A stretch of 63,870 nucleotides of DNA from an uncultured Pseudomonadota bacterium (GTDB lineage: Bacteria > Myxococcota_A > UBA796 > SXON01): NCBI GenBank assembly GCA_903844155.1, contig CAIMSU010000271.1:1-63870 (forward strand), given 5' to 3'. The position numbers were made by a program, and so were the translations under genes. Under the pieces are notes generated by a model. That model made no database searches. It worked only from the letters and a program-made list of their open reading frames with translations, and was not told the DNA's origin. Shown here in pieces: positions 1,701 to 49,383 of the stretch (position 1 is its first letter; the number at the start of each line of letters is the position of its first letter).

Positions 1701-4700
1701 TGGTGTCGCAGTTCAATGTCGGGTTCGCAAGCTACGCCGAGCGGCTTCGCTCGGAGTTGGCGCAGGGCTGGGTCGCACCAGCCCTGAGGCCCCTTGCCGG
1801 GCTCGAGCGACTGGCCACCCGGCTGGCCGCCCGCGCAGAGACTGGCTCGCCGGGGACATGGGCGCTCATGGGGCCACCGGGGGCGGGCAAGAGCGCTGCC
1901 GCCGTCGCACTCATGTTGGACCTCCTTGCGAGGGGTGTCGCGTGCGCTCGTTGGGACGCGTCCGTTCATCGGGAGCGGCCGGGCCTGCCGATGGATGGGC
2001 GCACACTGGCGGCGGCGCTCGGGCCCCCGGAGGTGGACGCCGCCCTCTGGCGGTCCCGAGCAAAGCGGGGCAGCATCGTGCTCTTCGTGGACGGTGTGGA
2101 GGAACTGGCTCGGGAAGTCCCCGGCGTTGACCCATGGAAGTTGCTCCTCGCTGAGCAGGGCTGCCCGATCGTGGTGACGCTCAACGCCGCGCGGAAGCCC
2201 CTGCCCCTGCACGTCTGTGCGCTGCGGCTGGCACCGCTGCCTGCGCACGCCATCGGACGCTTTCTCGACGCACGCGGCGTGGACCCGGAACGAGGGCTCG
2301 CCGCCCTGAAGGCCGCAGGGTTGGAGGGGGTGGCGGGCCGGCCGCGGTTCTTGTCGGCGCTCGCGAGGGAGCTGGCGGCCGGCCGGGAGTTGCCGCGAAC
2401 ACGCGCCGGGTTGCTCGATCGTCTGGGTCCTTCCAGCCAGTCACCGGAGGAGGGGGGGGCGACGTCGCTCGCGCTGCACCAACGGTTTCGGGATCAGCCC
2501 CTCCCAACGCTCGCGTGGGCGGCGGATGCGCCTGTCTCGTTCATCGGCGACTGGGCTGGGTCGGCCGCGGACGTCGAGGGCCGCGTGCGCTGGTTGATGG
2601 GCGAGGCCTTGCGGCGACGCCGTCTGGACGTACTCGTGGACGTCGTCCTCGCGAATCGGGGGGCGTTGCCTCCCCTGGTCCGGGCACGGGCGTGGCGCTC
2701 CGCCGGTGAGGCGCTGCTGGGCGACCCCCTTGTCCGGTTCCGGGCGGCGCAGCAGTTGGTGGACCTCCCGGCGTCCCTGCTGGGAGAGGCGCTGGGCGAG
2801 GGGCTCCTCGCGGGCCTGATGGAAGAGGATCACGTTGGATTCGTGGCGATGCAGGCTGACCTGTTGCGGGGGGAGCTGGCGCCGGCAACGTTGGACGCGC
2901 TGATGGCGGAGCCGCCGCTGGAGTCGGAGCCCGGGCTTGAGCTTCATGCGCATGAGCACCTCCTGGCCGAAGCGCTGGCCCAGCTCGAAACGGCCACGGG
3001 CTCCTACCGGCGCGCCGCCGCCAACGCCCTCGGGCACGCGGGCGAGCGCGGCGCGGTCGCCGGGTTGCTCCACGTGCTGCAGCCGGGCGTCGAGCGCGAC
3101 GCGAAGGTCCGCGGCTCCGCGACAAACGCGCTCGGGCAGATCGGCGATGCGAGCGCGGTTCCCGCGCTGACCCGAGTGCTGGACCCCGCGGTGGAGAGCG
3201 AGCCTCGCGTCCGCGCCTCCGCCGCGACCGCGCTGGGGAGCATCGGTGACAGCGCTGCCGCTCCCGCCCTCCTCGCTGTCTTGCACCCCGCGAAGGAGCC
3301 GGAGTCGCGGGTCCGGGCGGCCGCCGCCCGGGCCCTCGCGTGGGCGGGCGATGCCGCCACCGTATCCGGCCTCTGCGCGTCGCTCGCCCCCCGCTTCGAG
3401 CCCGATCCTTGGGTTCGGGCGACCGTCGCCGCCACGCTGGGGCGGCTTGGGGACGCTGATGCCGTGCCGATCCTGGCCGGGCTTCTGGCCCCGGGCAGGG
3501 AGGAGGATGCAGGCGTACGTGCGGGCGCGGCCGGCGCGCTCGGTAGCCTCCGTGACCGACGAGCCGAGCCCAGCCTGCTCGGCTGCGTCCGCATCGCTGT
3601 CGAACCAGCGGCTTTGGTGCGCGGCGCGGCAGCGGCCGCGTTGGGCCGGGTGGGCGGCGCAACCGCGTTGCCGACGCTCTCGGCCATGCTGAGCACTGAC
3701 CTCGAGCCAGACGCCATCGCTCGAGCCCAGGCGATCACGGCGCTTGGGGAGATCGGGGAGCCGAGAGCTGTGCCGGCGATCGTTTTGGCGCTCGGATCCG
3801 ATCCGGATGGCTTCGTCCGGGCCAGCGCGGCCGCGGTCCTCGGCCGGATCGGGGCCCGACCGGGCCTCGCGGCGCTCCAGGCGCGTATGGACAGAGCCGT
3901 CGAGGACGATCCCGAGGTTCGGGCGGCGGCCGCTCGCGCCCTGGGTGAAGCCGGGGACAGGGCAGCTGTGCCCGCGCTCTGCCGGGCACTCTCCGCCTCA
4001 GACGAGGACGGAGGCGTGCGTCGCGCGGCCGCGGAGGCCCTCGGGCGCGCTCGTGACGTGGGTGCGCACGCTGATCTGCTGGCAGTCGCCACAGACGAGG
4101 GGCTCGATTTTGAGCTACGAGCGGCGGCGGTCGATGCCCTGAGCGCCCTCTCCACGGGCGCGGAGTCGTGGATGCTCGCGATCCCGATCCGGTCGGGCCC
4201 GCGGCGAGGCGGCGCGGACGACCGCCCACTGCGCGAGTCGGTGTCAACGGCCCTGTTTGGGAACGCCGGTCATCCCGACGTGCGAAAGCGCCTGCGCACA
4301 CTGGCCTGCGCGGACCCCGATGGCGCCATTCGCGCCTCGTCCATTCACGCCCTCGCTGCGAGCGGTGGGCTCGATGACGCGACGGTCGAGCACCTCCTGG
4401 ACCCTGCGGCCCGCCGCCGGGATGAGTCGCGGCGGGATCCCGACCCCGCGGTTCGTGTCGCCGTCTGCCGCGCCGTGCTGGCTTCCCGCGATTCGAGCCG
4501 TCGCGCCGCGGGGCTCGTCGCCCTGCTGCTCGCCGAGTCCTCCACCGGACGGGCGACCGTTCGGGCCGTTTTCGGACCCTTTCTGGCGTCCCCCGGGGCC
4601 GAGGCGGCTGCCGCGCTGGCGCGGCTCGTGCCCGCGTTGCCAACGCCAGTGCCGAACCCCCACCTTCCCCGGATGCTGGAGGAGCTGCGAAAGTCCATGC

Positions 4701-10078: not shown

Positions 10079-10148
10079 GATTCTCGATTGAACGCGTACA
10101 TGCTAACGTATTCGGCGGCCCCAGGGGTCCGGCGGACCTCGGGGAGGC

Positions 10149-10177
10149 TTGACTCCAGTCGTGCGGAAGCGCAGAAT
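10149..10177 (+). promoter_or_regulatory. Candidate housekeeping promoter for the porin gene
   Basis: TTGACT (10149-10154), a 17-bp spacer and CAGAAT (10172-10177) resemble a sigma-70 type promoter, the -10 box matching 4 of 6. It lies 24 bp before the preferred porin start. No sigma-28-type motif was found in this divergent intergenic region. Confidence 0.35.
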
Positions 10178-10201
10178 CTGACGCGTTTTCCGTGCGTGCC
10201 C

Positions 10202-11254
10202 ATGCTGATCCAATTCCTCATTTTTTTTCTCACCACGGCCCACGCCGCCCCCTCGACGCCGCTCGCCGACCAACCCTTCGTGGCGCGGCCTTTCGGTTTC
10301 TTGATCCCTTCTTTCTCGCCCGTGCCCTCGCTGGCGTCGTCCGGGGAGGACGGGTTCGACCTGGAGGCGCACCTTGGAGCGGAGGCCCGGCTGGACCTGG
10401 GGACCGGGGGGCAGATGGGTGCCCTGGTGGAGCTCGATCTCACCCCGTCGCCGGGCCTCAAGGACGCCTACGCCCTTTATCGACCGACGTCGTTTCTCCG
10501 CGTGGATCTCGGACAGTTCAAAATCCCCTACGGCCTCGGGTTCCAGGCCTCGGACACGCGCCGACTCCTTCCCATGGCCCCGGTCGCGACCGAGGGGCTG
10601 GTCGGTCGCGACGAGGGGATCATGGTGACGGGATCGCTCCCCATCCATGGGGTGAGCGTCGGCAGCCTGCAGTTGGCTGCGTTCAACGGCGAGGGCCCCA
10701 ACATCTACCAGGATCCCGACCATCGCTACTTGTTTGTCGTTCGCGGGCTGATCACGCCTTTCGGCGCCCGGGTGAAGCCGTTCGAAGGTTCAGATGGCAC
10801 GTTGTATCTTGGTCTTGGTGGTGGGCTGCTCGACAACACCGTAGAGGCCGGGGGGGCTGCACACGTCCGTCAGTACGGAGCGGATGTGCAGTTCGCCTGG
10901 AACGTCCTCTCCGTCCAGGGCGAACTGCTCCTTGGGAGTCGTGCCCTGGAAGACGGAGCGCCGGAGCGATCCATCGGCGGATACGGCACGCTCTCCGTTT
11001 TCCTGCCATTCCCCTGGGTCAAGGATCATGTCCAGCTGATCGGTCGCTTCGGGCAGTCCGATCCGCAGGTCCAGAGCAGCGAGGGAGGCGACGCGACGCG
11101 CGAGTTCACCGGCGGGCTGGATCTCTACTGGTTCGCAGCGCCCGGTCCGTTCAGTGATGTGAAGCTCCAGCTCGCATTTTCCCATGTCGATGATCTGGAC
11201 GATGTCACCACATCGAGCGACCAACTCGTGGTCGCGGCGACCGTGCGGTTCTGA
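10202..11254 (+). CDS. Outer-membrane porin, OprP/OprO-like beta-barrel
   Basis: About 350 residues starting at ATG 10202, which gives a signal peptide directly (MLIQFLIFFLTTAHA, cut after AHA). Longer upstream starts would bury this signal. The mature part alternates hydrophobic and polar residues in strands. It contains FLRVDLGQFKIPYGLGFQ and RDEGIMVTGSL, which are typical of phosphate-selective porin O/P-type barrels, and it ends in Phe (VVAATVRF) as BAM-assembled barrels do. It probably forms a channel in the outer membrane; substrate unknown. It is divergent from the GRAM-PilZ gene and convergent with the kinase-HDOD gene, so it is not clearly part of the flagellar regulon. Confidence 0.75.
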   Translation: MLIQFLIFFLTTAHAAPSTPLADQPFVARPFGFLIPSFSPVPSLASSGEDGFDLEAHLGAEARLDLGTGGQMGALVELDLTPSPGLKDAYALYRPTSFLRVDLGQFKIPYGLGFQASDTRRLLPMAPVATEGLVGRDEGIMVTGSLPIHGVSVGSLQLAAFNGEGPNIYQDPDHRYLFVVRGLITPFGARVKPFEGSDGTLYLGLGGGLLDNTVEAGGAAHVRQYGADVQFAWNVLSVQGELLLGSRALEDGAPERSIGGYGTLSVFLPFPWVKDHVQLIGRFGQSDPQVQSSEGGDATREFTGGLDLYWFAAPGPFSDVKLQLAFSHVDDLDDVTTSSDQLVVAATVRF

Positions 11255-11276: not shown

Positions 11277-13538
11277 TCAGCGAGTTGCCTGACGGCCCTT
11301 CTTCCAGGCCACCTCCGCCGCGTCGAGCGAGCGCGCGGCGAGCTGGGCGGTAAAACCCAGGGCGGTCAGCGCCACAAAACCATCAAAAGTGCGTGACTCG
11401 CGAGCCGCCCAGGCCTCGTGCGCCGCGATGCTTGCCGCCCGCGTCGCGAGCGCCTGAAAGTGCTGGCCGGTGGGGGCGCGGTCCGGCGCGGGTCCGAAGC
11501 CGATGCTCGCAGCGGTGGCAGGCCCGAGCTTCCACGCGTCGGCCAGAAGCATTCCAACGCTCGGGTAGACGAGGTCCGCCACCGCGCCGACGAACTCGGG
11601 GCTGGCGGACTCCTCCGGGTTCCGCGAGGGGCCGCACTTGTACACGACGAGCTTGCCCAGACCGTGCAGGAGCGTGGGGAGGAATGCCTCGCCCTTCGGG
11701 TCGAAGATGACGCTGACATCGGCGGCAACGATGGACACCTCGCGCAGGTGGTCCGCGCGGGCCTGGTGGCTCCGCGCCTGAAACACCTTGGCGTTCATGC
11801 TGGCCGACATCGCGATCTGCCAGAGCCGGCGGTGTCCGAGCCGAAGCACCGCCTCACGGACGTTGGCGGGGGGCGTCGCCCCGAACGCCGGGCTGCTTGC
11901 TTCATCCCACACACGCTTGAGCATCCCGGGCTCGCGGATGACGACCTCGACCACCTGCGTCTGATCGATGTCGCCGGCGCGCAACAGCCAGTCCAGCCGG
12001 CGCGCGCCCGTGGGGAAGAGCGGAAAGTCGAGATGCGGCGTGCTGCAGGCGCGCACGAGCCGATCGATGAACAACCAGTCGTTACGGGTCGCCGCGGCGT
12101 CCCGCAAACCGTGCAGGCGGTTGGTCAATCGCGTGCGGACCTCTGGCACCTCGCGATCCATGGCGGCCTCGGCGCCGTCCCAGGGGGCGGGGCTCTCGAC
12201 GAACCTGGCGCGCGCGCTCTTCGGCGGCTCCGAAACCTCGACCGTGGGGGTCCTCGGCACCAAAGGTTGAGGCATCGCCGGGCCGGGCTTCTTCCAGTTG
12301 GAGAGGCGCTGCCACCAGGACTTTCGCGGCCGCGCCGTGGGAGGGGGGGCTGCTTGCTTGCGGGGTCGCGCCTCCGTGACCTCCTCCTTCTGGCTCGACG
12401 TGTACGCGGGCACCATCGTCAGACCGGCCGGGTCGGGCTCGGGCTCCATCGGGTTCCCGGTCAGCCGCGGCATGCTGAACTCGGGCAACGGAAGTGCCGG
12501 TCGCCGGTCCGTGCCCTCCATCCGCGATTCGTGCATCTGCCGTGCACCGAGACTGCCTGACAGCGTGCGCGTCCGCTCGACGACGATCTCGTCCGCAAAG
12601 AGCTCGCGCATGAAGGTGGACAGGGACTGTTGAAGGACTTCCGTCGACAGCGGATGCAGGAAGTCGAGGAGGGCGAGTTGCAAGTCCCGCGCGGTCTGGT
12701 ACCGATCGTCGGGATTCAACTCCAGCGAGCGCATCGCGATCTCATCGAGGCGGGGAGGGATCGTCGGGTTCGTGATGCTCGGCCGCTTGACGTCGGCCCG
12801 GCGCACGCGGTCGATGGTCTCGATCTCGGACGCGGCCTTGAACAGGCGACGACCAGTCAGCATCTCGTGCAGCAGCACGCCCAGCGCGAAGACGTCCGAG
12901 CGGCGATCGAGGTGGACCCCGCACGCCTGTTCGGGCGACATGTACGCGACCTTGCCCGTGATCGCCCCGATGTCCGTCTTCTCTGCGCAGGACACCGCCC
13001 GAACGATGCCGAAGTCGCCGATCTTGACCTCGCCCATGTACGAGACGAGGATGTTGGACGGGTTGACGTCGCGATGGACGATGTTGAGCGGCTCGCCGGT
13101 GATCGAGACCCGCTTGTGGGCGTAGTCCAGCCCCTTGGCGGCCTCCATGGCGATGTAGACCGCGAGCTCGATGGGGAGGGCCATGCGCCTGCGGGCGAGG
13201 TTGTTGAGCAGGAACTTGACGTCCTTGCCCTCGACGCACTCCATGGCGATGAAATAGCTGGCTCCCACCTTGCCGAAGTCGTACATCCGGACGATGTTTG
13301 CGGCCTGAAGTACGGCGAACACCTTCGCCTCGTCCATGAACATGCGGACAAAGCGGTCATCGTCCGTGGGCGGCGCCACCATGCGCTTGATGGCGACCAG
13401 GTTCTCGAACCCGCCCGCTTCGAAGCTGATGGCGCGGAAGATCTCTCCCATGCCACCCACCGCGATGCGATCGAACAGGTAGTACTTCCCGAAGACCTCG
13501 ATGCCGACTGGAGTTGGCGTGCGCTCGTCGGTGGTCAT
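11277..13538 (-). CDS. Ser/Thr protein kinase-HDOD domain fusion
   Basis: About 753 residues. The N-terminal Hanks-type kinase has a Gly-rich loop (VGGMGEIF, ~28), catalytic Lys in VAIKRM (~51), HRDVNPSN (155-162; Lys of the usual HRDxKxxN is Asn, as often in myxobacterial kinases with HRDVSPQN) and DFG (175-177). The APE-like MSPEQ is also present. A Pro-rich linker (~330-470) leads to a C-terminal HDOD domain (~510-720; LDWLLRAGDIDQTQVVEVVIREPGMLKRV). HDOD domains are non-catalytic HD-fold modules linked to signalling and motility control. No transmembrane segment is evident. ATG 13538 is preferred over TTG 13559. It is last in the flgB-flgC-fliE direction, 94+ nt after fliE, which points to a motility-linked signalling role. 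Confidence 0.85.
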   Translation of the reverse strand: MTTDERTPTPVGIEVFGKYYLFDRIAVGGMGEIFRAISFEAGGFENLVAIKRMVAPPTDDDRFVRMFMDEAKVFAVLQAANIVRMYDFGKVGASYFIAMECVEGKDVKFLLNNLARRRMALPIELAVYIAMEAAKGLDYAHKRVSITGEPLNIVHRDVNPSNILVSYMGEVKIGDFGIVRAVSCAEKTDIGAITGKVAYMSPEQACGVHLDRRSDVFALGVLLHEMLTGRRLFKAASEIETIDRVRRADVKRPSITNPTIPPRLDEIAMRSLELNPDDRYQTARDLQLALLDFLHPLSTEVLQQSLSTFMRELFADEIVVERTRTLSGSLGARQMHESRMEGTDRRPALPLPEFSMPRLTGNPMEPEPDPAGLTMVPAYTSSQKEEVTEARPRKQAAPPPTARPRKSWWQRLSNWKKPGPAMPQPLVPRTPTVEVSEPPKSARARFVESPAPWDGAEAAMDREVPEVRTRLTNRLHGLRDAAATRNDWLFIDRLVRACSTPHLDFPLFPTGARRLDWLLRAGDIDQTQVVEVVIREPGMLKRVWDEASSPAFGATPPANVREAVLRLGHRRLWQIAMSASMNAKVFQARSHQARADHLREVSIVAADVSVIFDPKGEAFLPTLLHGLGKLVVYKCGPSRNPEESASPEFVGAVADLVYPSVGMLLADAWKLGPATAASIGFGPAPDRAPTGQHFQALATRAASIAAHEAWAARESRTFDGFVALTALGFTAQLAARSLDAAEVAWKKGRQATR

Positions 13539-13653
13539 CACGGCCTGACCCACGCTCAAGCCGAGCCCTCGGCCGAAGCGACCGCAGAGGGCCTGATCGG
13601 CGGCTTCGGGTCCCTGTCTGGCTCAACCGGGGCTTCCAATGGAGTCTCCAAGG

Positions 13654-13947
13654 TCAAATCGGCATGTTCCAGAGGGCCTGGTAGGCGTCGACCAGCTTGT
13701 CGCGCACGCTCGTCATCGCGCGCAGGGCGATGTTCGCCTCCTCAAGCGCGATCATCGTGCCATGCAGATCGACGCTGCGCCCGCTTGCCAGCCCCTCCAG
13801 CTGCGCGTCTGCGCCAGTCTGCGCCGCATCGACGGACTTCACGGCCGACTCGAGTAGCTCCCCAAAGTTGCTGGCGCTGGCGACGCCTGCCCCGGTGAGC
13901 TGCCCGATGTCCGCGGCGTTGGAGACGCCCTGAACGCGCTGGATCAT
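13654..13947 (-). CDS. fliE: Flagellar hook-basal body protein FliE
   Basis: A 97-residue FliE, the adaptor between the MS ring and the proximal rod. The family signature is the C-terminal part: DLHGTMIALEEANIALRAMTSVRDKLVDAYQALWNMPI aligns with the conserved helix (MIAxEKAxLSFxLxxxVRNKxVEAYQEIMRMQV). The start codon overlaps the end of flgC, so flgB-flgC-fliE form the standard compact rod operon. It is transcribed on the minus strand from the sigma-28-type promoter ahead of flgB. Confidence 0.93.
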   Translation of the reverse strand: MIQRVQGVSNAADIGQLTGAGVASASNFGELLESAVKSVDAAQTGADAQLEGLASGRSVDLHGTMIALEEANIALRAMTSVRDKLVDAYQALWNMPI

Positions 13948-14369
13948 CGCCCGATCTCGAGCGCGCGCAGCGCCATGTCGCGGGTCGCTTCGACGACCGA
14001 GCTGTCCGCCTCATACGCCCGGTTCGTCATCATGAGATCGACCATCTCCTGCATCACGTCGACGTCGGGGTAGGAGACGTAGCCGTTGGCGTCCGCGTCC
14101 GGGTGGGAGGGGTCGTACACGCGGACGGGCGGCCGCCCGTCGGAGCGGATGCCCGTCACCTCGACGCGGGAGGTCGCCCGATCGAGCTCGTCTCCGAAGG
14201 GATCGAGCTGCTTCGCCTCGAACGTGGGCACCTGCCGCTTGAACGGCCCCCCCTCCGCCGTGCGGGTCGTCCGCGCGTTCGCCATGTTCGTCGCGATGGT
14301 CTGCAGCCGCAGGCGCTCGGCCGAGAGCCCGGACGCGGCGACATTGAAGGTATCGATGATGTCGGACAT
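13944..14369 (-). CDS. flgC: Flagellar basal-body rod protein FlgC
   Basis: A 141-residue proximal rod protein. The N-terminal helix FNVAASGLSAERLRLQTIATNMANA and the C-terminal DVMQEMVDLMMTNRAYEAD segment are the paired coiled-coil signatures of axial proteins. Mid-protein it has the FlgC-typical YDPSHPDADANGYV(S)YP motif. It overlaps flgB upstream and fliE downstream by a few bases. It is exported by the flagellar type III system and assembles between FlgB and FlgF/FlgG. Confidence 0.95.
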   Translation of the reverse strand: MSDIIDTFNVAASGLSAERLRLQTIATNMANARTTRTAEGGPFKRQVPTFEAKQLDPFGDELDRATSRVEVTGIRSDGRPPVRVYDPSHPDADANGYVSYPDVDVMQEMVDLMMTNRAYEADSSVVEATRDMALRALEIGR

Positions 14370-14749
14370 CAGGACTTCCCGTTGCTGGCTGCGAAGCGCA
14401 AGAGCGCCAGATGCCGGCTCATTCCGGTGCTGAGCGCGTTGTACATCAGGGAGTTCTCGGTGAGCTTGACGGCCTCAGCTTCCGGCGACACAGAGTTCCC
14501 GTCGAGGGCCCAAGCCACCGGGTCGACCTCGCGGATCTCCTCCTCCGGGGCCGCGGATTCGCCGTTCTCGGCGGCATCGACGGCGCGGCCGAGCAGGTCG
14601 GCGAACGGAACCTCACGCGCGTGGTAGCCGGGCGTGTCCGCATTCGCGAGGTTGGCCGCGGACAGGATGTGTTGCACCTGACGGAGATCCAGCGCCCGCT
14701 GGACGCCCGCGCCCACCGCGTCGAAGAGCCGAACTGGTGTGGTTGTCAT
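14369..14749 (-). CDS. flgB: Flagellar basal-body rod protein FlgB
   Basis: A 126-residue proximal rod protein and first gene of the flgB-flgC-fliE operon. The signature HILSAANLANADTPGYHAREVPFADLL is the conserved N-terminal axial motif, and NSLMYNALSTGMSRHLALLRFA is the C-terminal helix. A good Shine-Dalgarno (GGAGTG) lies ahead of ATG 14749. An exact sigma-28-type promoter lies 22 bp upstream, inside the end of the preceding TPR gene. Confidence 0.94.
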   Translation of the reverse strand: MTTTPVRLFDAVGAGVQRALDLRQVQHILSAANLANADTPGYHAREVPFADLLGRAVDAAENGESAAPEEEIREVDPVAWALDGNSVSPEAEAVKLTENSLMYNALSTGMSRHLALLRFAASNGKS

Positions 14750-14769: not shown

Positions 14770-16881
14770 CTATCGGTTGTTTTGCTCAGGACTTGAGCGG
14801 TTCTCGCCCCGACTCCGCGCGACCCGCTCGGAGAATGCGCTTTGTGCCTCATCTTCGCCCTGGATGCGGCCCCAAAGGTCGCCTGGGGCCAGGGGCTTTC
14901 CAGCCGTCCAGTTTGCGAATCCCATCGCGTCCGGGTCGATGAGCTGGGTGCCCGCGCGAGCGGCGGCCACCCGGGCCTCATCCACGCGGCCTGCCGCGAG
15001 CAGGCAGCGCGCCTGGTCCTCGTCCATCTCGGCCCTCGAGAGCCCAGCGGGGAATGGGTCGGGCGGAGCGCCGAACACGAGGAGCGCGGCATCGCATCGG
15101 CCGTCGCGGGCGTCGATCATCGCACGTCGCACTGCCGCTTCGGCGGCCTCGGCCGGCGGGCTGCCGACCGTGTTGTACAATGCGACGGCGCCGTCGTCGT
15201 CACCCGCCTCCTCCTGAATGGCGGCCCGCTCGAGCGTCAACCCGGCCGTGATGACGGGATCCGGGGGCCGACTCGCCAACACGTCGAGTGACTGGATGGC
15301 CTCGGGCGTGCGCCCGGACAGGCGATAAAGCCGGGCGATCGTCAGGATCGACGCCCGATCGTCGAGGGCGTGCTCGCCTTCGATCTCCGACGCGGTGCGC
15401 ATCAGGTCGAGCGCGGGCTCGTACATGCTGAGGCGCCCGGCGGCGGCCGCCAGCTCGTAGAGCGGCGTGGGGTCGACCATGTGGGCTGCGAGCCCAGGCC
15501 GCCAAAGGCCGTCGTGGACCGACAGGGCGTCCAGATCCTTCCCTTCCGCCAGCAGCGTTTGGACGCGCGACTGCCACGCCCGCATCAACCGCAGACCGGG
15601 ATCCCCGGTCATGAAGCGGCGGTCGCGGTCCGCGAGCGTGGTCCAGGCATAGATGGCCAGCCTGGGGTCTCCGAGGACTTCGCTGACTTGACCGAGCAGG
15701 TACAGGGACTCGTTCGCGTCGTCGCCCTCACCCCGTCCGACCCGCTCAAGCATGGGGACCATCGGGGCCCACGCGTCCGGAGGCTGCTTGAGCATGTTGA
15801 GGAGCGAGGATCGCGAACGCAGGAGCGGGACCCAGTGCTGCGCTTCGGGACTCGTCGTCAACTCCTGAAGTGCCGCGTCCGCGCCGGGCAGATCGCCGAG
15901 GAGAATCCGCGCGTCCATCAGGAGGCGCAACGACATCGCCGCGACCTGACCGTCCGAATCGTGGATCGAGCGCGCGAGGACGGCCTCCGCCTCCGCGGGG
16001 CAGCCGCCCCGGAGGAGGAGCTCCCCGGCGACGAGCGCCGCGGCCCCGGAGCTCGCGGTCGACGCGAGCGCGCGACCGGCAGCTACGGGGTCCTCTGATG
16101 GGGTCATCCACTTCGCGATCCCCTCGATCCGCAGCAGGAGCGCCTCGTCCGCTCCCAGAGCGCGGGCCTCGGACGCCGAGCTGGCGGCACCCGCCCAGTC
16201 CTGGACCGCGAGCTGTGCGCCGGCCCGTTGCAGGACGGCCGTGGCCGGCGGGGCACCCAGGCGACCGGCGGCGGTGAAGTAGTACTCGGCCTCCCGCGCT
16301 TGCCCCAGATCGCGGTGCAGCGCCCCGAGTTGGTAGTACTGTTTCGCGTCGGTGGGGTCGAGCGTGCGCCTGAGCCGGTCCACCTTGCCCCAGGTCGCGT
16401 CCGTGGGCTCCGCCTCGGACCAGCGTGGCAGCTCCGGCGTGACAATGGAGGGGAGGAGATCGCTCAACATGTCGCGCCCGTGGAGCGGCTCTAGCGGGGT
16501 CAGGGGCGTAGCGTCGCACATGGCCGACTCGGGCGTTGGAGCTGCCCTTCCCCTCCGGCGAGGAGCGGGGGGAGGAGGCGGATGGATCGGCGTGATGGCC
16601 GCCGTCAGCGTGGTGCCGGTCGGGTTGAACGCCACGGTCGTCGTCGGGTCGCGCATCGCCAGGCTCAACAACCAGACGCCACCCATGTCGAGCAGGCGCC
16701 AGGAGCGGACACCGTCGATCGTCCCCGTGCCGATCTGGGGGCGAAGGTCCTCGCTGTTCCCGTGAAACACGATGTCCACCCGACCGGGGACCATCACGGG
16801 CAGCACGTCGGTCACGGCACCGGGAGAGGGCGCGAGCGTGAGCGGCGCGGCCAGAGCCAACCCCGCGAGCAGGAGGATCAA
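14770..16881 (-). CDS. Exported TPR-repeat protein in the flagellar operon
   Basis: About 703 residues. Start TTG 16881 overlaps the stop of the preceding gene (TTGA) and gives a signal peptide directly (LILLLAGLALAAPLT); longer in-frame starts would bury it in an Arg-rich non-protein-like stretch. After a beta-rich N-terminal region and a Pro-rich linker (HPPPPPAPRRR), most of the protein is TPR-like helical repeats (YYQLGALHRDLGQAREAEYYFTAAG and others). It probably acts in the periplasm as a scaffold. Location between fliS and flgB suggests a role in flagellar assembly or passage through the envelope. It could be a PflA- or FlgP-like accessory by analogy only; I do not recognise a named family. 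Confidence 0.7.
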   Translation of the reverse strand: MILLLAGLALAAPLTLAPSPGAVTDVLPVMVPGRVDIVFHGNSEDLRPQIGTGTIDGVRSWRLLDMGGVWLLSLAMRDPTTTVAFNPTGTTLTAAITPIHPPPPPAPRRRGRAAPTPESAMCDATPLTPLEPLHGRDMLSDLLPSIVTPELPRWSEAEPTDATWGKVDRLRRTLDPTDAKQYYQLGALHRDLGQAREAEYYFTAAGRLGAPPATAVLQRAGAQLAVQDWAGAASSASEARALGADEALLLRIEGIAKWMTPSEDPVAAGRALASTASSGAAALVAGELLLRGGCPAEAEAVLARSIHDSDGQVAAMSLRLLMDARILLGDLPGADAALQELTTSPEAQHWVPLLRSRSSLLNMLKQPPDAWAPMVPMLERVGRGEGDDANESLYLLGQVSEVLGDPRLAIYAWTTLADRDRRFMTGDPGLRLMRAWQSRVQTLLAEGKDLDALSVHDGLWRPGLAAHMVDPTPLYELAAAAGRLSMYEPALDLMRTASEIEGEHALDDRASILTIARLYRLSGRTPEAIQSLDVLASRPPDPVITAGLTLERAAIQEEAGDDDGAVALYNTVGSPPAEAAEAAVRRAMIDARDGRCDAALLVFGAPPDPFPAGLSRAEMDEDQARCLLAAGRVDEARVAAARAGTQLIDPDAMGFANWTAGKPLAPGDLWGRIQGEDEAQSAFSERVARSRGENRSSPEQNNR
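14772..14797 (-). promoter_or_regulatory. Sigma-28-type promoter of flgB-flgC-fliE
   Basis: On the minus strand, CTCAA, 16 bp, then CCGATAGC: an exact match to the motif found across this island. It overlaps the 3' end of the TPR gene. The flgB start is 22 nt downstream, leaving room for its ribosome-binding site. Confidence 0.75.
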
Positions 16882-17441
16882 AGGGCCACCACCGCCCCGA
16901 GCCCGACCCGGACCGCGCTCAGATCCAACCCGCAGACGGGCTCGGTGCCACAAACATCCCCGTGCCGACGCAGCATCGCCCGGTACCCGAGCGAGACCTC
17001 GACGGCGAAGGCCGTATCCGTCGCCTGAAGCTCCCCGAGGTGTACCCGCGCGCTGCCCTCGACGAGCGCCCCCCATTTCCAGCCGCGGCTCGTCTGCGGG
17101 TCGCCCTCGCCGACCTGCTCCGAGAATCCGACGGTCGCCGGCCCCACCCCCAGCCCGAGGTCAACCCGCGAGAGCGTCTTGCGCACTCCGATTGTGGCTG
17201 AGATGGGGGTGTAGCGCATCCAGCTCGTGGCCGCGGTGAGCTGCCCGTCCGCTTCCAACTGGTGTCCCGCCGTGCGCCGGTAGCCGACCACCCCCGTCAG
17301 ACGCAGCCCATACGGCAGGTCGCCCGACGCGACCAGCTCGCCTGACAAGGAGCGGTCGCCGTACATCAACCCCAGCGTCGGATCATTCGCGCTCTCCCCG
17401 GCGAGCCGTAGGCCCAGCGCGAACCCCGTGAAACCGATCAC
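16878..17441 (-). CDS. Uncharacterised beta-rich protein, possible outer-membrane component
   Basis: A 187-residue protein of alternating hydrophobic and polar residues (GLRLTGVVGYRRTAGHQLEAD, VDLGLGVGPATVGFSEQ), as in small outer-membrane barrels. It ends with VGLGAVVAL, not an aromatic residue. GTG 17441 overlaps the stop of the preceding small gene (GTGA), and its own stop overlaps the TPR gene start, so translation is probably coupled. A clear signal peptide is not visible. I recognise no family. Its place within the fliD-fliS operon suggests a flagellum-linked envelope protein. Confidence 0.55.
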   Translation of the reverse strand: MIGFTGFALGLRLAGESANDPTLGLMYGDRSLSGELVASGDLPYGLRLTGVVGYRRTAGHQLEADGQLTAATSWMRYTPISATIGVRKTLSRVDLGLGVGPATVGFSEQVGEGDPQTSRGWKWGALVEGSARVHLGELQATDTAFAVEVSLGYRAMLRRHGDVCGTEPVCGLDLSAVRVGLGAVVAL

Positions 17442-17734
17442 TGGGGCCGCCCCGCCGAGCCGGCGTAGGCACCGACGGCCCGGCGCCCCAAACCAACGGC
17501 CCGCAGCTTCCCGGACAGCTGGTCCCGCCGGGCCTGGAGCGCGCTGATCACGCGATCGACCCGCTGCGCCAGTTGCGCCCTGCCGGCCTCATCCAGCGAA
17601 GCGGCCAACGAATCCGCCGCCTGAGAGAGCTGGGCGTATTGCACCCCGGGAATCGGCCGATCCGTCTCGATCTTCCACACAAGGGTGTCCAGCTGGAGGA
17701 GGAGTCTCCCCAGATCCGGGGCGCTCCCGTTCAC
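17438..17734 (-). CDS. Small helical protein in fliT position
   Basis: A 98-residue, mostly helical protein (LGRLLLQLDTLVWKIETDRPI and a second helix VDRVISALQARRDQLSGKLRAVG). It directly follows fliS, with overlapping start and stop codons, which is where the FliD chaperone FliT is found in fliD-fliS-fliT operons. Size and helicity fit an export chaperone, but I see no residue signature that proves FliT. Confidence 0.55.
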   Translation of the reverse strand: MNGSAPDLGRLLLQLDTLVWKIETDRPIPGVQYAQLSQAADSLAASLDEAGRAQLAQRVDRVISALQARRDQLSGKLRAVGLGRRAVGAYAGSAGRPQ

Positions 17735-18126
17735 TTCGGCGGTTCCCCGGGGCTCGAGAAGCGCGAGAGCTCGACGGCCTTGCGCCAGGTCTCCTCGACC
17801 ACCCCGGTGACGCGCTGGATCTCGGACATCAGCTCAGGATCGCGCGTGCGGACCACGGTCGTGAGCTGGTGGATGCACCAGGCATACGTCTGGTGCAAGG
17901 ACTGGGCGACGTTCGGCGCCGCAGTCGGATCCAGAGCGAGGCGCAGCTCGATGAAGATGGCTCGGGCGACATGGACGTGGGCGATCAGCCCCTCGTGATC
18001 GTCCGCCGCGAGGCACTCCGCGGCCATAGCCTCCCGGCGAACAGCCTCCGCGACGAGCAACACCAGAATGTCCTCGTTGGTGGCATGCTCAAGCTGTGTG
18101 CGGCGGTAGCTGGCGATTGCGCTCAT
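17731..18126 (-). CDS. fliS: Flagellin export chaperone FliS
   Basis: A 131-residue four-helix protein. It begins MSAIASYRRTQLEHATNEDILVLLVAEAVRREAMAA, matching the FliS pattern (YxxxxVxTAsPxeLixmLYdgAixxl), and has the usual later helix with LHQTYAWCIHQL. ATG 18126 is chosen because the upstream extension is Arg/Ser/Pro-rich antisense-like sequence. FliS binds the C-terminus of flagellin in the cytoplasm, prevents early polymerisation and delivers it to FlhA. It sits right after fliD, the usual order. Confidence 0.85.
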   Translation of the reverse strand: MSAIASYRRTQLEHATNEDILVLLVAEAVRREAMAAECLAADDHEGLIAHVHVARAIFIELRLALDPTAAPNVAQSLHQTYAWCIHQLTTVVRTRDPELMSEIQRVTGVVEETWRKAVELSRFSSPGEPPK

Positions 18127-18130
18127 GGGG

Positions 18131-19495
18131 TCAACCTGATGTGCTGGAGGAACTGGAGGAAGAGGACGGCAGGAGGGCGGCGATGGCCGACTTGGCGGAG
18201 TTGAAGCCCGCGAGCGCGAGTTCCATCGCCGTGAATTCCTGCTTGAGCCGAGCCTCATACGACGTCAGCTGGTCCTCATAGGTCGAGATCCGTGTGTCGT
18301 AGGCCGTCAAGTCCTTCGCCAACGAGTCCGAGCGCGCCGTGATCGTCCCGTCGGTGCCCGTGAACGTGCCCAGCAGCGTTGTCAGCGAGGCCGCGATGCC
18401 ATTGCTCGAGTCGGTGAACAGCTTGGTGACGTCATTGAAGCCCGAGTCCAGCGCCGACGTGAACTTGTCGGAGTCGAGCGCGATGTCGCCGTTCTGCTTG
18501 GTGGAGATGCCGAGGTTGGCGAGCGAGTTGAAGTCGCCGACCGCCGTGTATGCCGCGCTGATCGTGGACTGGAGTTGCCGGACGACGTCGGTCGGCTGGA
18601 GCTCGCCCACAAAACTGCCCTGAATGCCCTGTTTGGGGTTCCACGCTTCCTGACCGCGGATGTAGGACATGACGGAGTTGTAGGCCGTCACGACCGCCTC
18701 CATCTTCGTCACCATCGATGCCGTGTCCTTGCTCACCGTGACCGTCGCGGCGGAGCTGGTCACGTCCGTGGCGGTGAGCGTGACTCCCTGGATCACACCC
18801 GTCACATCGTTGCTGCTCGACGTGACGCTGACCCCGTTGACCTCAAGTTTCGCGTCCTGAGCGGCCGTGACCTCGGTGAAGCTCGGGACGGTCCCGGTGC
18901 TGCTGTCGAGCCCCGATGTGTCGATGCTCACGGTGTTCTCGGAGCCGCTCGAATTGGCCGTCACAACGAGCCTGTACGGGGTACTGGCATCCCCGGTGTT
19001 CATGACGTAGGCGGTGACGCCGTCGACCTGGTCGTTGATCGCGCTGACGAGGTCGTCCAGACTGGACGAACTCGAGTCGATCGTCACGTTGGTCGTCACC
19101 CCGGCGACCGTGAAGCTGTAGGTTCCGGTGGCCATCGTGCCGGAGTCGGACTCACTGGCGACACCGTCCGAGACCTCCATTGCGGTCGAGGCGAGCTGGC
19201 TGACGGTGACCGACATCGCTCCGACGATGGCGTCGCCGGCGACAGTGATGCCGACGGCGCTGCTGTTCGATGCTCCGGTGACCGACCGGAACTCCTTCGA
19301 GGTGTCCATGTCCTCGATCGCCGACTTCAGCGTGTCGAGCCGGGAGGCGAGCGTGTCGTACGCGTCCTTCCGGCTGGAGACCGTGGCCTTCTGGGCCTTG
19401 ATGGTGTTGAGCGTCACCGAGTTGGCGGCGACCAGTGACGAGATCAGCGCACCGGTATCGATGCCCGATACGATTCCGCCGGTGAATGTAGACAT
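18131..19495 (-). CDS. fliD: Flagellar filament cap protein FliD
   Basis: A 454-residue hook-associated protein 2 that caps the filament and helps flagellin insert. The N-terminal signature STFTGGIVSGIDTGALISSLVAAN and the C-terminal coiled coil (LAKDLTAYDTRISTYEDQLTSYEARLKQEFTAMELALAGFNS) are diagnostic. The core is Ser/Thr-rich and variable, and it ends in a Ser run. It lies 86 nt after fliC on the same strand with a GC-rich hairpin between them. I found no sigma-28-type motif of its own, so it is probably read through from fliC at a lower level. Confidence 0.93.
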   Translation of the reverse strand: MSTFTGGIVSGIDTGALISSLVAANSVTLNTIKAQKATVSSRKDAYDTLASRLDTLKSAIEDMDTSKEFRSVTGASNSSAVGITVAGDAIVGAMSVTVSQLASTAMEVSDGVASESDSGTMATGTYSFTVAGVTTNVTIDSSSSSLDDLVSAINDQVDGVTAYVMNTGDASTPYRLVVTANSSGSENTVSIDTSGLDSSTGTVPSFTEVTAAQDAKLEVNGVSVTSSSNDVTGVIQGVTLTATDVTSSAATVTVSKDTASMVTKMEAVVTAYNSVMSYIRGQEAWNPKQGIQGSFVGELQPTDVVRQLQSTISAAYTAVGDFNSLANLGISTKQNGDIALDSDKFTSALDSGFNDVTKLFTDSSNGIAASLTTLLGTFTGTDGTITARSDSLAKDLTAYDTRISTYEDQLTSYEARLKQEFTAMELALAGFNSAKSAIAALLPSSSSSSSSTSG

Positions 19496-23397: not shown

Positions 23398-23423
23398 AAC
23401 GGGCGAGACCGGAAAAAGTTCAG
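23398..23423 (-). promoter_or_regulatory. Sigma-28-type promoter of flgM-flgN-flgK-flgL
   Basis: CTGAA, 16 bp, CCGTTAG: one mismatch in each box relative to the island consensus, with exact spacing. Placement 10 nt before the flgM ATG equals that at flgI, fliL and flhA. FlgM would be under control of the sigma factor it inhibits. Confidence 0.6.
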
Positions 23424-24124
23424 CGGTTTTTTTCAAGGAACGCCGTCGGATCGACGGGTTCGCCGTCCTGCCGGACCTCGAAATGCAGGTGCGGCCCCGT
23501 GGATCTGCCGGTACTTCCAACCGTTCCGACGACTTCTCCCTCCGCGACCTGATCCCCCGCACGGACGTTCAGTGAGGCACAGTGCGCGTACCGGGTCTCA
23601 AGCCCGTCGCCGTGATTCAGGATGACCACGTTTCCGTAGCCGCCACGCTCACCGGCGAACGACACGACCCCGCTCCGCTCCGCGTGGATCGGCGTGCCCG
23701 CTGGCAAGCCAATGTCCAGCCCGTCGTGCCGACGCGTCGTGCCGTCGATGGGATCGATTCGGAGCCCGAACCCGCTGGTGACCCGGCTGGGCGGGGCGCT
23801 GGCGCGATCGTGAGCCGGCAGGGGATGTCGGATCTCCAAGGGTGCGATCGGCAGCGGTGCAGGCTCCCCGTGGCGGGCGAGCGCGGTCTCAAGCTCCCGG
23901 CGCAGCCCAATCCCCTGCCCCTCGGCGGCCCGCTTGCCGATCTCCTGATCCAGAAGGTCGGCGAACATGCCCGCGGCCCCGGAGTTCAGCGGCCCGTCCG
24001 GGACCGCCTCTCGCATCTGTTTGCACAGGAACCCGATCAGGTAGGCCTCGAAGGCCTCGGCCGCGCGCGGTCCCTTTTCGAGCTGGGGCGCAGGGACGGT
24101 CGCGTCGATGCCCTGGACCTTCAT
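23420..24124 (-). CDS. flgJ: FlgJ rod-binding domain fused to an M23 metallopeptidase
   Basis: A 234-residue two-domain protein. Residues ~15-90 are the FlgJ rod-binding domain (AAEAFEAYLIGFLCKQMREAVP ... GAAGMFADLLDQEIGKRAA), the rod-cap part. Residues ~125-230 are an M23/LytM zinc endopeptidase with HDGLDIG (metal-binding His and Asp) and HLHFE near the end, all metal ligands present. In gamma/beta-proteobacteria the C-terminal domain is a glucosaminidase. Here a cross-link-cutting peptidase takes its place, so the rod would pass the wall by cutting peptides, not glycan. ATG 24124 overlaps the flgI stop. No signal peptide is visible, consistent with type III export. Confidence 0.9.
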   Translation of the reverse strand: MKVQGIDATVPAPQLEKGPRAAEAFEAYLIGFLCKQMREAVPDGPLNSGAAGMFADLLDQEIGKRAAEGQGIGLRRELETALARHGEPAPLPIAPLEIRHPLPAHDRASAPPSRVTSGFGLRIDPIDGTTRRHDGLDIGLPAGTPIHAERSGVVSFAGERGGYGNVVILNHGDGLETRYAHCASLNVRAGDQVAEGEVVGTVGSTGRSTGPHLHFEVRQDGEPVDPTAFLEKNR

Positions 24125-25236: not shown

Positions 25237-25980
25237 CTACTTTCCCCCGTTGGCCTCTGGGAGCACCTTGTTGGCGACCTCGGCGGCCGGGCCTGGCTCG
25301 GCAACTCGGACCTTGATGTTCACGGCGCGCGCTTCGGGGTTCTCCCCGTCCGCCAGCGTCGCGCTGGTCACAAGCCGCGCGGCGGGTATTCCATGGTGTT
25401 CGAGATAGCGCACGGTGACCAGCGCGCGCTCGGAGGCCAGCGCCCAGTTGTCGGCGAACAAGCCCCCAGGAGCGATGGGGACCCCGTCGGCATGGCCGAT
25501 CACCTCTACCAACGCGGCGAACGGCGCGAGCTTCTCGGCGATCTCGCTGAGCACTCCGTACGCGCTGGGCCTGAGCTCAGCCCTTCCCACCACGAAGAGG
25601 AAGCTTTGCGGCAGCACCAACACGAGGTCCTGGTCGACCAGCCCGATCTGCACGACGTTGTCCGACATCGAGCCCTCGAGGTTGCGCTTCAGCGTGGCGA
25701 TCGTGGGTTCGGCCGCCTCCTCCATGAGGTGGTTCGGCACGATGTTCGGCACGTCGGGTGGAGGGGGCGCCACGTCGAGCACGTCGAGCAGCGCCATCGG
25801 CATACCGCCGTCGAACGCCGCGTTCATCGCGTTGATGATGGCGCTCAGCTTCTTCTGGTCGGTCTGCGCGCTCGCATAGAGCACGGTGAAGAACGCGAAC
25901 AGCAACGTGATGAAGTCCGCGTAGCTCACGAGCCAGCGCTCGTGGTTCTCGTGTTCCTCGTGCTTGACCTTGCGCGCCAT
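25237..25980 (-). CDS. motB: Flagellar motor stator protein MotB
   Basis: A 247-residue stator subunit. The single membrane helix carries the proton-accepting Asp at residue 22 (YADFITLLFAFFTVLYA), followed by a plug-like region and a C-terminal OmpA-like peptidoglycan-binding domain (SEIAEKLAPFAALVEVIGHADGVPI, then NWALASERALVTVRYLEHHGI). Proton rather than sodium coupling is likely from the MotB-type residues but not proven. It follows motA by 3 nt on the minus strand and ends the fliA-flgF-flgG-flgA-flgH-motA-motB run. Confidence 0.93.
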   Translation of the reverse strand: MARKVKHEEHENHERWLVSYADFITLLFAFFTVLYASAQTDQKKLSAIINAMNAAFDGGMPMALLDVLDVAPPPPDVPNIVPNHLMEEAAEPTIATLKRNLEGSMSDNVVQIGLVDQDLVLVLPQSFLFVVGRAELRPSAYGVLSEIAEKLAPFAALVEVIGHADGVPIAPGGLFADNWALASERALVTVRYLEHHGIPAARLVTSATLADGENPEARAVNIKVRVAEPGPAAEVANKVLPEANGGK

Positions 25981-25983
25981 CGG

Positions 25984-26772
25984 CTAGGCTGCCTGCTCGT
26001 TCTCCGCCGAGGGGCTCGGCTTCGGGCCCGCATGGCGTCCGAACGGCGCAAGCATCTCCGTCATCTGGCGTGCATTGGCGCCCGCGACGATGCCGGTCAC
26101 ACCGACGAGCAGCATCTCGCGGTCCTCGGTGTCGCCCCCCACGATCTTCTTGAGTCGGGTCCCGAGCGGAAGGAAGACGAGGTTCGCCGCACCCACGCCG
26201 TAGATCGTGGCGACGAATGCAACAGCGATGCCGGATCCGAGCTTGGCCGGGTCGGTCAGGTTCTGCATGACGTGAATCAGGCCGAGCACGGCCCCAAGGA
26301 TCCCGATGGTCGGCGAATACCCGCCGGCGGCCTCGAACAACTTCGCCGAGGCCATGCCGTGGTGCTCCTCCATGTCCATCTCCAGCTCGAGCATGTGCTT
26401 CACGTGGTCGCCGCTGCTGCCATCCACGAGCATCTGGAGCGCCTGCCGCAAGGTGGGGTCGCTCACCGACGGGAGCTGGGATTCAACCGCGAGCATGCCA
26501 TCCCGACGGACGATCGTGGTCATTCGCAGGATGTCCGACTGCATCTTCGGCCGGTCGGCTTTGCCGGGGAAGACCACACGGCGGATCAGGGCCTGGAGGC
26601 CCCGCAGCTCCTCCTTCGTCGCCCCGAGCCACGTCGCCCCGATGGTGCCGCCGAACACGATCATCGCGGCCGTCGGCTGCACCAATGACGAGAGGTGCCC
26701 CCCCTCAACCGCGTTGCCCCCGAGGATCAACCCGAAAGAGAGGGCGAGCGCGAAGACGGCCGTCAGATCCAT
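25984..26772 (-). CDS. motA: Flagellar motor stator protein MotA
   Basis: A 262-residue four-helix stator subunit of the MotA/PomA type. It starts MDLTAVFALALSFGLILGGNAVEGG and has the conserved helix 3 stretch GGYSPTIGILGAVLGLIHVMQNL and helix 4 LGSGIAVAFVATIYGVGAANL. The cytoplasmic loop with RRVVFPG carries the charged residues that touch FliG. It is placed between flgH and motB. Confidence 0.95.
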   Translation of the reverse strand: MDLTAVFALALSFGLILGGNAVEGGHLSSLVQPTAAMIVFGGTIGATWLGATKEELRGLQALIRRVVFPGKADRPKMQSDILRMTTIVRRDGMLAVESQLPSVSDPTLRQALQMLVDGSSGDHVKHMLELEMDMEEHHGMASAKLFEAAGGYSPTIGILGAVLGLIHVMQNLTDPAKLGSGIAVAFVATIYGVGAANLVFLPLGTRLKKIVGGDTEDREMLLVGVTGIVAGANARQMTEMLAPFGRHAGPKPSPSAENEQAA

Positions 26773-48430: not shown

Positions 48431-48847
48431 ATGTCCAACATTCTGGCCTCGTTGCACCGGTTCAGGGCCCACGCCAGCCGTGAATCCCAGGTCTCCCTGC
48501 GACTGGCGGAGACCGCTCGGGATCAACAGGAGCAGAGGCTCACGGACGTCGGTGACGGGATCCGCGCCGCGCAGGCCGCGGTAGACTACGGTGACGTCGC
48601 GGCGATGGCCGCCTATCAGGCGTTCCGGATCCGCGAAGAGTTCAACGAGCGGCGCGAGCGCGCGCGCCTCCAGCAAAAAGAGCGCGACGTGATGCTCTCG
48701 GGCGACCGCCACGTGAAGTGCGTCCGCGATGAGTTGACCATCGAAGCGGTCATCGAGGAGCGGATGGCGGAGGATCGCGAAGAACTGCGTCGCGTCGAGG
48801 CCCGGGGGATGGACGAGATCGCGTCGCGTCTGCGGATCGCCGGATGA
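48431..48847 (+). CDS. fliJ: Flagellar export stalk protein FliJ
   Basis: A 138-residue, almost wholly alpha-helical coiled-coil protein (LHRFRAHASRESQVSLRLAETARDQQEQRLTDVGD ... MAAYQAFRIREEFNERRERARLQQKERDVML). Size, helicity and place right after fliI match FliJ, the gamma-subunit-like stalk of the FliI hexamer. Sequence identity in this family is low. The stop overlaps the next gene. Confidence 0.8.
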   Translation: MSNILASLHRFRAHASRESQVSLRLAETARDQQEQRLTDVGDGIRAAQAAVDYGDVAAMAAYQAFRIREEFNERRERARLQQKERDVMLSGDRHVKCVRDELTIEAVIEERMAEDREELRRVEARGMDEIASRLRIAG

Positions 48848-49383
48848 CACGGAGAGGGGTCTGGATCGCGGTGGGGCTGGTGGCCGCGTGCGTGGTTAGC
48901 GGCGCTGCCCTGGCGTCCGGCGCGGATGAGCCCGCCGCAGATATGGCTGCCACGCTGCGTTGGTGCGGGGAGGAGCAGGCGGGTAACCGCGAGCTCGCCG
49001 ATCAGCTTCGTCACCGCGCCCGGGAGCTGGACGAGAAGGAGCACTCCTTTGACGGCCGGAAAGCCGAGCTTACCGAGACGGAAAAGCGACTCGACACGCG
49101 CATGGACGAGCTCAAGGCGCTCCGGACCGAGGTCAGCCTGAGCCTGGACCGCGCGGACGCGGCGCAGGACGAACGCGTGAAGGGCCTTGTCAAGATGGTC
49201 GAGAGCAACCGCGCGGCCTCGATCGCACCGATGTTCGCAGTGCTGGACGAATCCCTCGCGGTTGAGGTGCTCGACCGGATGAACCGGCAGAAGGCCGGAA
49301 AGCTCCTGGCGGCACTCCCTCCGGCCAAGGCCGCATCACTGGCGGACAAGCTCACTCGCGCCCTGCAGCCGAAAGTCCATTGA
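48844..49383 (+). CDS. MotE-like motility chaperone
   Basis: A 179-residue protein with an N-terminal signal or anchor (VWIAVGLVAACVVSGAALA), a long coiled coil (ELDEKEHSFDGRKAELTETEKRLDTRMDELKALRTEVSL) and a C-terminal MgtE_N-like domain (VKMVESNRAASIAPMFAVLDESLAVEVLDRMNRQKAGKLLAALPPAKAASL). This is the arrangement of MotE proteins, periplasmic chaperones for a motility protein such as MotC in rhizobia. It lies between fliJ and fliK, with overlaps at both ends. Confidence 0.75.
   Translation: MTRRGVWIAVGLVAACVVSGAALASGADEPAADMAATLRWCGEEQAGNRELADQLRHRARELDEKEHSFDGRKAELTETEKRLDTRMDELKALRTEVSLSLDRADAAQDERVKGLVKMVESNRAASIAPMFAVLDESLAVEVLDRMNRQKAGKLLAALPPAKAASLADKLTRALQPKVH

Follow-up and report, generated by a model that had tools for sequence, protein, structure and literature searches.

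A divergent FliT, a putative outer-membrane barrel and a candidate PflA/MotK-type spoke protein encoded by overlapping genes between fliS and flgB

Contig CAIMSU010000271.1 of an uncultured bacterium (assembly GCA_903844155.1) was analyzed over positions 1 to 63,870, the whole stretch of 63,870 nucleotides (nt) being referred to here as the window. Three genes lie between the flagellar genes fliS and flgB, and encode a protein of 98 amino acids (aa), here open reading frame 1 (ORF1), a protein of 187 aa (ORF2), and a tetratricopeptide repeat (TPR) protein of 703 aa. The block comprises the following genes:

18131–19495, minus strand: fliD, lying next to fliS on its upstream side in the conserved block (by family position and by phmmer orthologues among relatives)
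17731–18126, minus strand: fliS (Pfam FliS, E = 8e-19), with its start, MSAIASYR, at 18126
17438–17734, minus strand: ORF1, assigned as a divergent FliT of 98 aa (profile-profile match with FliT), overlapping the fliS stop codon as GTGA
16878–17441, minus strand: ORF2, a putative outer-membrane beta-barrel of 187 aa related to the MXAN_2562 family (family matches and model)
14770–16881, minus strand: TPR protein of 703 aa, predicted to be exported, a PflA/MotK-type spoke candidate (TPR matches in most relatives, helical-repeat model, family-wide signal peptide, flagellar company)
14369–14749, minus strand: flgB (synteny and orthologues)
13944–14369, minus strand: flgC (synteny and orthologues)
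13654–13947, minus strand: fliE (synteny and orthologues)

The initial annotation had placed three genes here with start and stop codons overlapping each other and fliS, and direct reading of the junctions confirmed this: ..AAGTGAAC.. between fliS and ORF1 (overlap GTGA), ..CAGTGATC.. between ORF1 and ORF2 (overlap GTGA), and ..CTTTGATC.. between ORF2 and the TPR gene (overlap TTGA), with flgB following 20 nt past the end of the TPR gene. The 175-aa frame of fliS is over-extended, and the TPR gene starts with the TTG at 16881, a longer ATG frame from 17076 having no support from relatives. Four-base overlaps are ordinary in bacterial operons and alone mean little. The coupling of ORF2 and the TPR gene is tight in most relatives, with no more than about 4 nt between the ORF2 stop and the TPR start. 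Since the ratios of nonsynonymous to synonymous substitution rates (dN/dS) between the window and a congener (L022) were 0.20 for ORF2, 0.31 for the TPR gene and 0.66 for ORF1 (FliS, 0.20; FlgB, 0.05), each of the three frames is a real gene.

The gene order fliC-fliD-fliS-ORF1-ORF2-TPR-flgB-flgC-fliE was found in almost every readable flagellated relative of the same taxonomic order. Some of these relatives carry an additional gene, either preceding flgB or separating ORF1 from ORF2. The block has been retained in many genera, spanning six families of the order. FliS was present in 39 of 58 relatives and the TPR gene also in 39, with 38 genomes common to both. Among the genomes of the order obtained from a search of the class (n = 63), the full-length TPR gene and FliS occurred together in 41, the TPR gene alone in 1, FliS alone in 2, and neither in 19 (Fisher p ~7e-13, a value that ignores relatedness and is thus too small). 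In the single genome with the TPR gene only (L069) the contig is broken inside that gene, and two genomes without fliS, one from the genus of the window (G003) and one from genus g6 (G011), are also missing the trio. These counts, together with the gene order, bear out the expectation that the trio is conserved with flagellar genes in relatives, and it is rather likely to be an accessory block of the flagellum. A further genome (G030:C8, L076) showed a FliS match with no recognisable FliC, FliD, FlgB, FlgC or FliE in the surrounding 18 kb.

ORF1 lies directly after fliS and is about 100 aa long, its helical character being read from composition and profile match only. FliT is a cytoplasmic export chaperone, a core flagellar protein whose gene normally follows fliS. 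The match of ORF1 to Pfam FliT was sub-threshold (14.4 bits); the cut-off of this family was reached in just 2 of the 235 genomes of the phylum, the FliT candidates after fliS falling mostly below it. Profile-profile comparison (hhalign) of the ORF1 family with the FliT proteins of the phylum gave a probability value of 91.5, an E-value of 8e-7 and a score of 38.9, as compared with a maximum of 13.8 in 200 shuffles (0/200 as high) and with 12–15 for FliS, FliE and FlgB. A C-terminal motif, G-R-x-A-x-x-x-Y, is common to ORF1 and several FliT proteins of the phylum. A search of ORF1 against solved structures gave unrelated helical proteins only. By this significant profile match, as well as by gene position, size, predicted helicity and motif, ORF1 is assigned as a divergent FliT, differing from the classical family in being too divergent for the Pfam cut-off, like most FliT candidates of the phylum. 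The earlier claim that none of the three proteins belongs to a core flagellar family is therefore wrong.

ORF2 had been described as a beta-rich possible outer-membrane protein, a description supported by barrel-family matches in its relatives and by an all-beta model. Six of the 30 ORF2 relatives matched NCBIfam MXAN_2562_fam (NF040596), over most of the barrel and with a best E-value of 7.3e-15, and three matched Pfam OMP_b-brl (best 2.1e-7). The window ORF2 alone gave no family match, these two families included. The sole ORF2 relative from a flagellar locus with a score read (L184) reached 45.3 bits, the family cut-off of MXAN_2562 being 100 bits. By these scores the window ORF2 is a relative, not a member, of the MXAN_2562 family, from which it also differs in being tied to the flagellum and in having no signal peptide. 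A literature search for MXAN_2562 and MXAN_2561 found no paper. The predicted model of ORF2, made from a shallow two-sequence input, was all-beta and of low confidence (predicted local distance difference test, pLDDT, 53.7), and its best Foldseek matches were weak (E 0.15 and up) and nearly all outer-membrane barrels, e.g., NspA. The C-terminal residue is F or L in most of the 30 members (e.g., VRF, ARL), the window protein ending in VAL.

Signal peptides, called here and below by a hydropathy and small-residue heuristic and not by SignalP, were seen in nearly all ORF2 relatives outside the genus of the window (g1) and genus g6 (18–72 residues before strand 1; L083 as chosen was without a clear hydrophobic start). 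In these two genera only 4–10 residues precede strand 1, with no recognisable signal peptide, and a search for an upstream in-frame start that would provide the window ORF2 with a signal peptide was negative. The signal-peptide-less form (window 16878–17441; L052, L053, L054, L060, L063) begins just before the first beta-strand, and the gene is under purifying selection. The term outer-membrane protein thus holds for the ORF2 family, from which we infer an outer-membrane place for the window copy.

In two families of the same class lying outside the order (f7 and f8), an ORF2-type barrel is encoded near fliS without this TPR gene, following a FliT-like gene and a PilZ gene where readable. Because ORF2 occurs near fliS without the TPR protein in these other families, the two are no obligate pair, and, as its spread at the locus exceeds that of the TPR gene, the barrel may have a task of its own. 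The PilZ-domain gene between the FliT-like gene and the barrel was read at 4442–5011 of L128 and 4486–5061 of L129, from another family of the class; it is a possible cyclic di-GMP input to the block.

Barrels related to ORF2 were also observed in another context. Frames of about 800–1100 aa bearing MYXO-CTERM (L178, 3018–5411; L180, 768–3269; L182, 988–3591; also L179, L181 and L183) combine a propeller-like and an Fn3-like part (by eye) with the MYXO-CTERM sorting signal and then an ORF2-related barrel, an unusual order within one frame, and are present in flagellated and non-flagellated relatives. In family f3 (L085, L088, L090), genes for short proteins rich in D and T, with a MYXO-CTERM-like tail, separate the FliT-like gene from that of the flagellar barrel; the curated MYXO-CTERM model was not reached by these.

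The TPR protein, for which the prediction of an exported protein was upheld by family-wide signal peptides, TPR matches and a helical-repeat model, can be divided as follows:

16846–16881, minus strand: predicted signal peptide, about residues 1–12, MILLLAGLALAA (hydropathy and small-residue rule, conserved in relatives)
16591–16845, minus strand: N-terminal domain, AMIN-like by weak profile match (hhalign)
16519–16590, minus strand: proline-rich linker, about residues 98–121 (read from the sequence)
14803–16398, minus strand: TPR solenoid, about residues 162–693, with 30 predicted helices (AlphaFold2 model)

A hydrophobic start followed by a small-residue cleavage site was found in nearly all family members, and by this signal sequence the protein is predicted to be exported to the periplasm. 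The N-terminal domain is conserved and gave no Pfam match; its hhalign score against the AMIN domains of the same genomes was 17.7, as compared with 7–12 for unrelated controls, and 1 of 300 column shuffles scored as high, which is suggestive of an AMIN-like domain and no more. The linker, proline-rich in the window, is a stretch of low conservation between this domain and the solenoid. The AlphaFold2 model (two sequences) had a mean pLDDT of 58.7, the solenoid being better than the rest, and its approximately 30 helices correspond to about 15 TPR hairpins. TPR families matched most relatives, and no enzyme domain was found. Sequence searches of the PDB, made with the TPR alignment and with its N-terminal portion, gave only generic TPR or other helical-repeat proteins, or noise.

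A presumed partner for the TPR protein is encoded in the window, as are the stator proteins that a spoke would serve:

48844–49383, plus strand: predicted FlgY/MotE/FlbB-type E-ring protein (sub-cut-off profile matches and position between fliI and a putative fliK)
25237–26772, minus strand: motB and motA, stator genes (Pfam MotB_plug/OmpA and MotA_ExbB)

The product of 48844–49383 matched Pfam MgtE_N with E = 4e-4 and 21.3 bits, below the cut-off of 25.9, and NCBIfam collar_FlbB along most of its length with E = 0.002, also below the cut-off. Its N-terminal signal segment is followed by a coiled coil, its C-terminal part is MgtE_N-like, and orthologues were found in 33 of 58 relatives. Both this layout and the place of the gene are those of FlgY/MotE/FlbB E-ring proteins (PMC13023049), and the weak profile matches and the position together show it, as a sequence-level prediction, to be a protein of this type. 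When the genome of the window was searched for MgtE_N, the sole match listed was on a different contig, and the sub-cut-off protein of the window was missed.

PflA consists of a beta-sandwich, a linker and 16 TPR motifs (PMC12222027), and its homologues have been defined as proteins with multiple TPR motifs that are encoded near flagellar genes, in genomes having FlgY (PMC11870540). The TPR protein has at least three consecutive TPR motifs and no enzymatic domain, and its gene, at the fliS-flgB site, is no more than five genes away from a flagellar cluster, the genome also having a FlgY-type gene (that of the sub-cut-off E-ring protein). As it agrees with these published bioinformatic criteria and an E-ring protein is encoded in the window, the TPR protein fits a PflA/MotK-type spoke. 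With PflA of Campylobacter jejuni and Helicobacter pylori it shares predicted export, an N-terminal domain (beta in PflA), a linker and a long TPR superhelix (PMC12222027, PMC11870540, PMC13023049), as well as a gene beside flagellar genes and a FlgY partner in the genome; it differs in giving no detectable sequence match to PflA, in the location of its gene between fliS, fliT and the outer-membrane protein gene on one side and flgB on the other, and in coming with an outer-membrane barrel gene. A PflB identity for ORF2 was rejected, PflB being a helical TPR protein and ORF2 a barrel. The likeness to the PflA/PflB pair put forward in the initial annotation accordingly stands for PflA, through the FlgY/MotE partner and the definition of PMC11870540, and falls for PflB: the pair resembles PflA with an outer-membrane protein, not PflA with PflB. 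No PflB, PflC or PflD was identified, no systematic search for these having been made.

MotK has an AMIN domain, a proline-rich stretch and TPR motifs (PMC10954123), and with it and CC_2058 of Caulobacter the TPR protein shares an N-terminus that is weakly AMIN-like, a proline-rich stretch, a TPR body of similar size and a MotE-type partner (PMC10954123, PMC13023049; MotK is from Cereibacter sphaeroides). Genes of the motK type usually follow motA or motE, whereas the window TPR gene is located in the fliD-fliS-flgB block and its AMIN likeness is weak. In the Borrelia collar the TPR proteins FlcA and FlcB sit on an FlbB-type E-ring, and the window E-ring protein weakly matches FlbB; however, that collar belongs to periplasmic flagella, and a weak FlcA match was found in only 1 of 34 TPR relatives.

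The reading that we consider fairly probable is that the overlapping genes make up a single accessory flagellar block, which encodes FliT, an outer-membrane barrel and a PflA/MotK-type spoke. ORF1 would act as FliT, an export chaperone in the cytoplasm. The TPR protein would be secreted to the periplasm as the spoke, its AMIN-like N-terminal domain binding peptidoglycan or a partner, and its solenoid would extend inward in the direction of the rotor axis to contact the E-ring protein of FlgY/MotE type encoded in the same cluster. The spoke would thereby join the E-ring to the stator ring, so that stator units might be held in a wider or steadier ring. The ORF2 barrel would most likely fasten or position the scaffold, or the passage of the rod, at the outer membrane. 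Within this scheme we infer the spoke function of the TPR protein, its contact with the E-ring, the contact of barrel and spoke, the location at the motor and any phenotype. A barrel dedicated to the motor scaffold and paired with the PflA-type spoke, which would tie the stator scaffold through the periplasm to the outer membrane, is a more tentative proposal, and rather a doubtful one.

Several points weigh against the block being a spoke with its barrel. The AMIN match of the TPR N-terminal domain is weak, and this region has a pLDDT under 45 in the model. Searches of solved structures gave no direct match to PflA by sequence, and the fold search with the TPR model gave generic TPR superhelices, PflA not being among the matches listed, which excludes nothing. 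On the side of ORF2, the model is of low confidence (pLDDT 53.7), the window copy is without a recognisable signal peptide, the gene lies near fliS without the TPR protein in other families of the class, and the barrel family is also found without flagella.

An unlikely alternative, the best of those considered, is that the two proteins, barrel and TPR, assist in making the path by which the rod crosses the envelope (L-ring insertion, local peptidoglycan or outer-membrane remodelling, or a PilF/Tgl-like pilotin role) and do not belong to a stator scaffold. The genes adjoin flgB-flgC-fliE and not motAB, the weak NCBIfam matches include PilW/Tgl pilotins and BamD, and an outer-membrane barrel fits such a passage better than a stator role. 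However, about 15 hairpins with an N-terminal domain are unlike the small pilotins, flgH, flgI and flgA are present and normal, and the FlgY/MotE partner points to a spoke.

It is less probable still that ORF2 and the TPR protein form a system for surface display or a sheath that shares no more than its regulation with the flagellum and derives from the MXAN_2561/MXAN_2562 pair, in which a MYXO-CTERM surface protein accompanies a barrel. The MXAN_2562 matches of ORF2 relatives, the D/T-rich MYXO-CTERM-like protein (weak match) shortly before ORF2 in some relatives, and the homologous barrels after MYXO-CTERM propeller-like proteins elsewhere in these genomes agree with it, whereas the block has no MYXO-CTERM gene in the window or in most relatives and the TPR gene is missing where the flagellum is missing. 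That the genes are passengers without a role in motility, kept by the operon structure since recombination hardly separates overlapping genes, is very improbable given the purifying selection on ORF2 and the TPR gene, their retention in many genera, from six families of the order, even where additional genes have come to lie between them, and their absence where flagella are missing.

E-ring and PflA spokes have been argued to be ancient parts of the flagellar motor, and spokes are difficult to recognise, since TPR proteins are poorly conserved in sequence. Here a candidate spoke can be followed, together with its presumed E-ring partner, across a whole order by sequence, by gene order and by its absence with the flagellum; judging by its MYXO-CTERM and MXAN_ families, this order probably belongs to the Myxococcota. 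What is new here is that a putative outer-membrane barrel and a putative spoke are conserved as a pair in one operon, and the co-conserved barrel hints at how scaffolds of this kind might extend to the outer membrane. If the spoke-and-barrel reading is true, an integral outer-membrane barrel would be a structural part of the motor, in some genera reaching the membrane without a classical signal peptide. A limited literature search found no paper devoted to flagellar motors of this phylum.

Between fliS and flgB, other flagellated bacteria of the phylum encode a different protein of some 400 aa that is apparently exported (L142, 7463–8803; L143, 7019–8206); in L142 it matches TPR weakly (E 1e-4) and may represent a further spoke. 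Elsewhere in the window, the gene at 23420–24124 (minus strand) encodes a FlgJ-type rod-binding domain fused to Peptidase_M23, not to the usual glucosaminidase, and the frame at 10088–11254 (plus strand) encodes 388 aa, a possible porin judged from reading the sequence only. Directly after fliE, at 11277–13559 (minus strand), lies a gene for a Ser/Thr protein kinase with an HDOD domain, which is kept in at least two congeners (L052 and L054).

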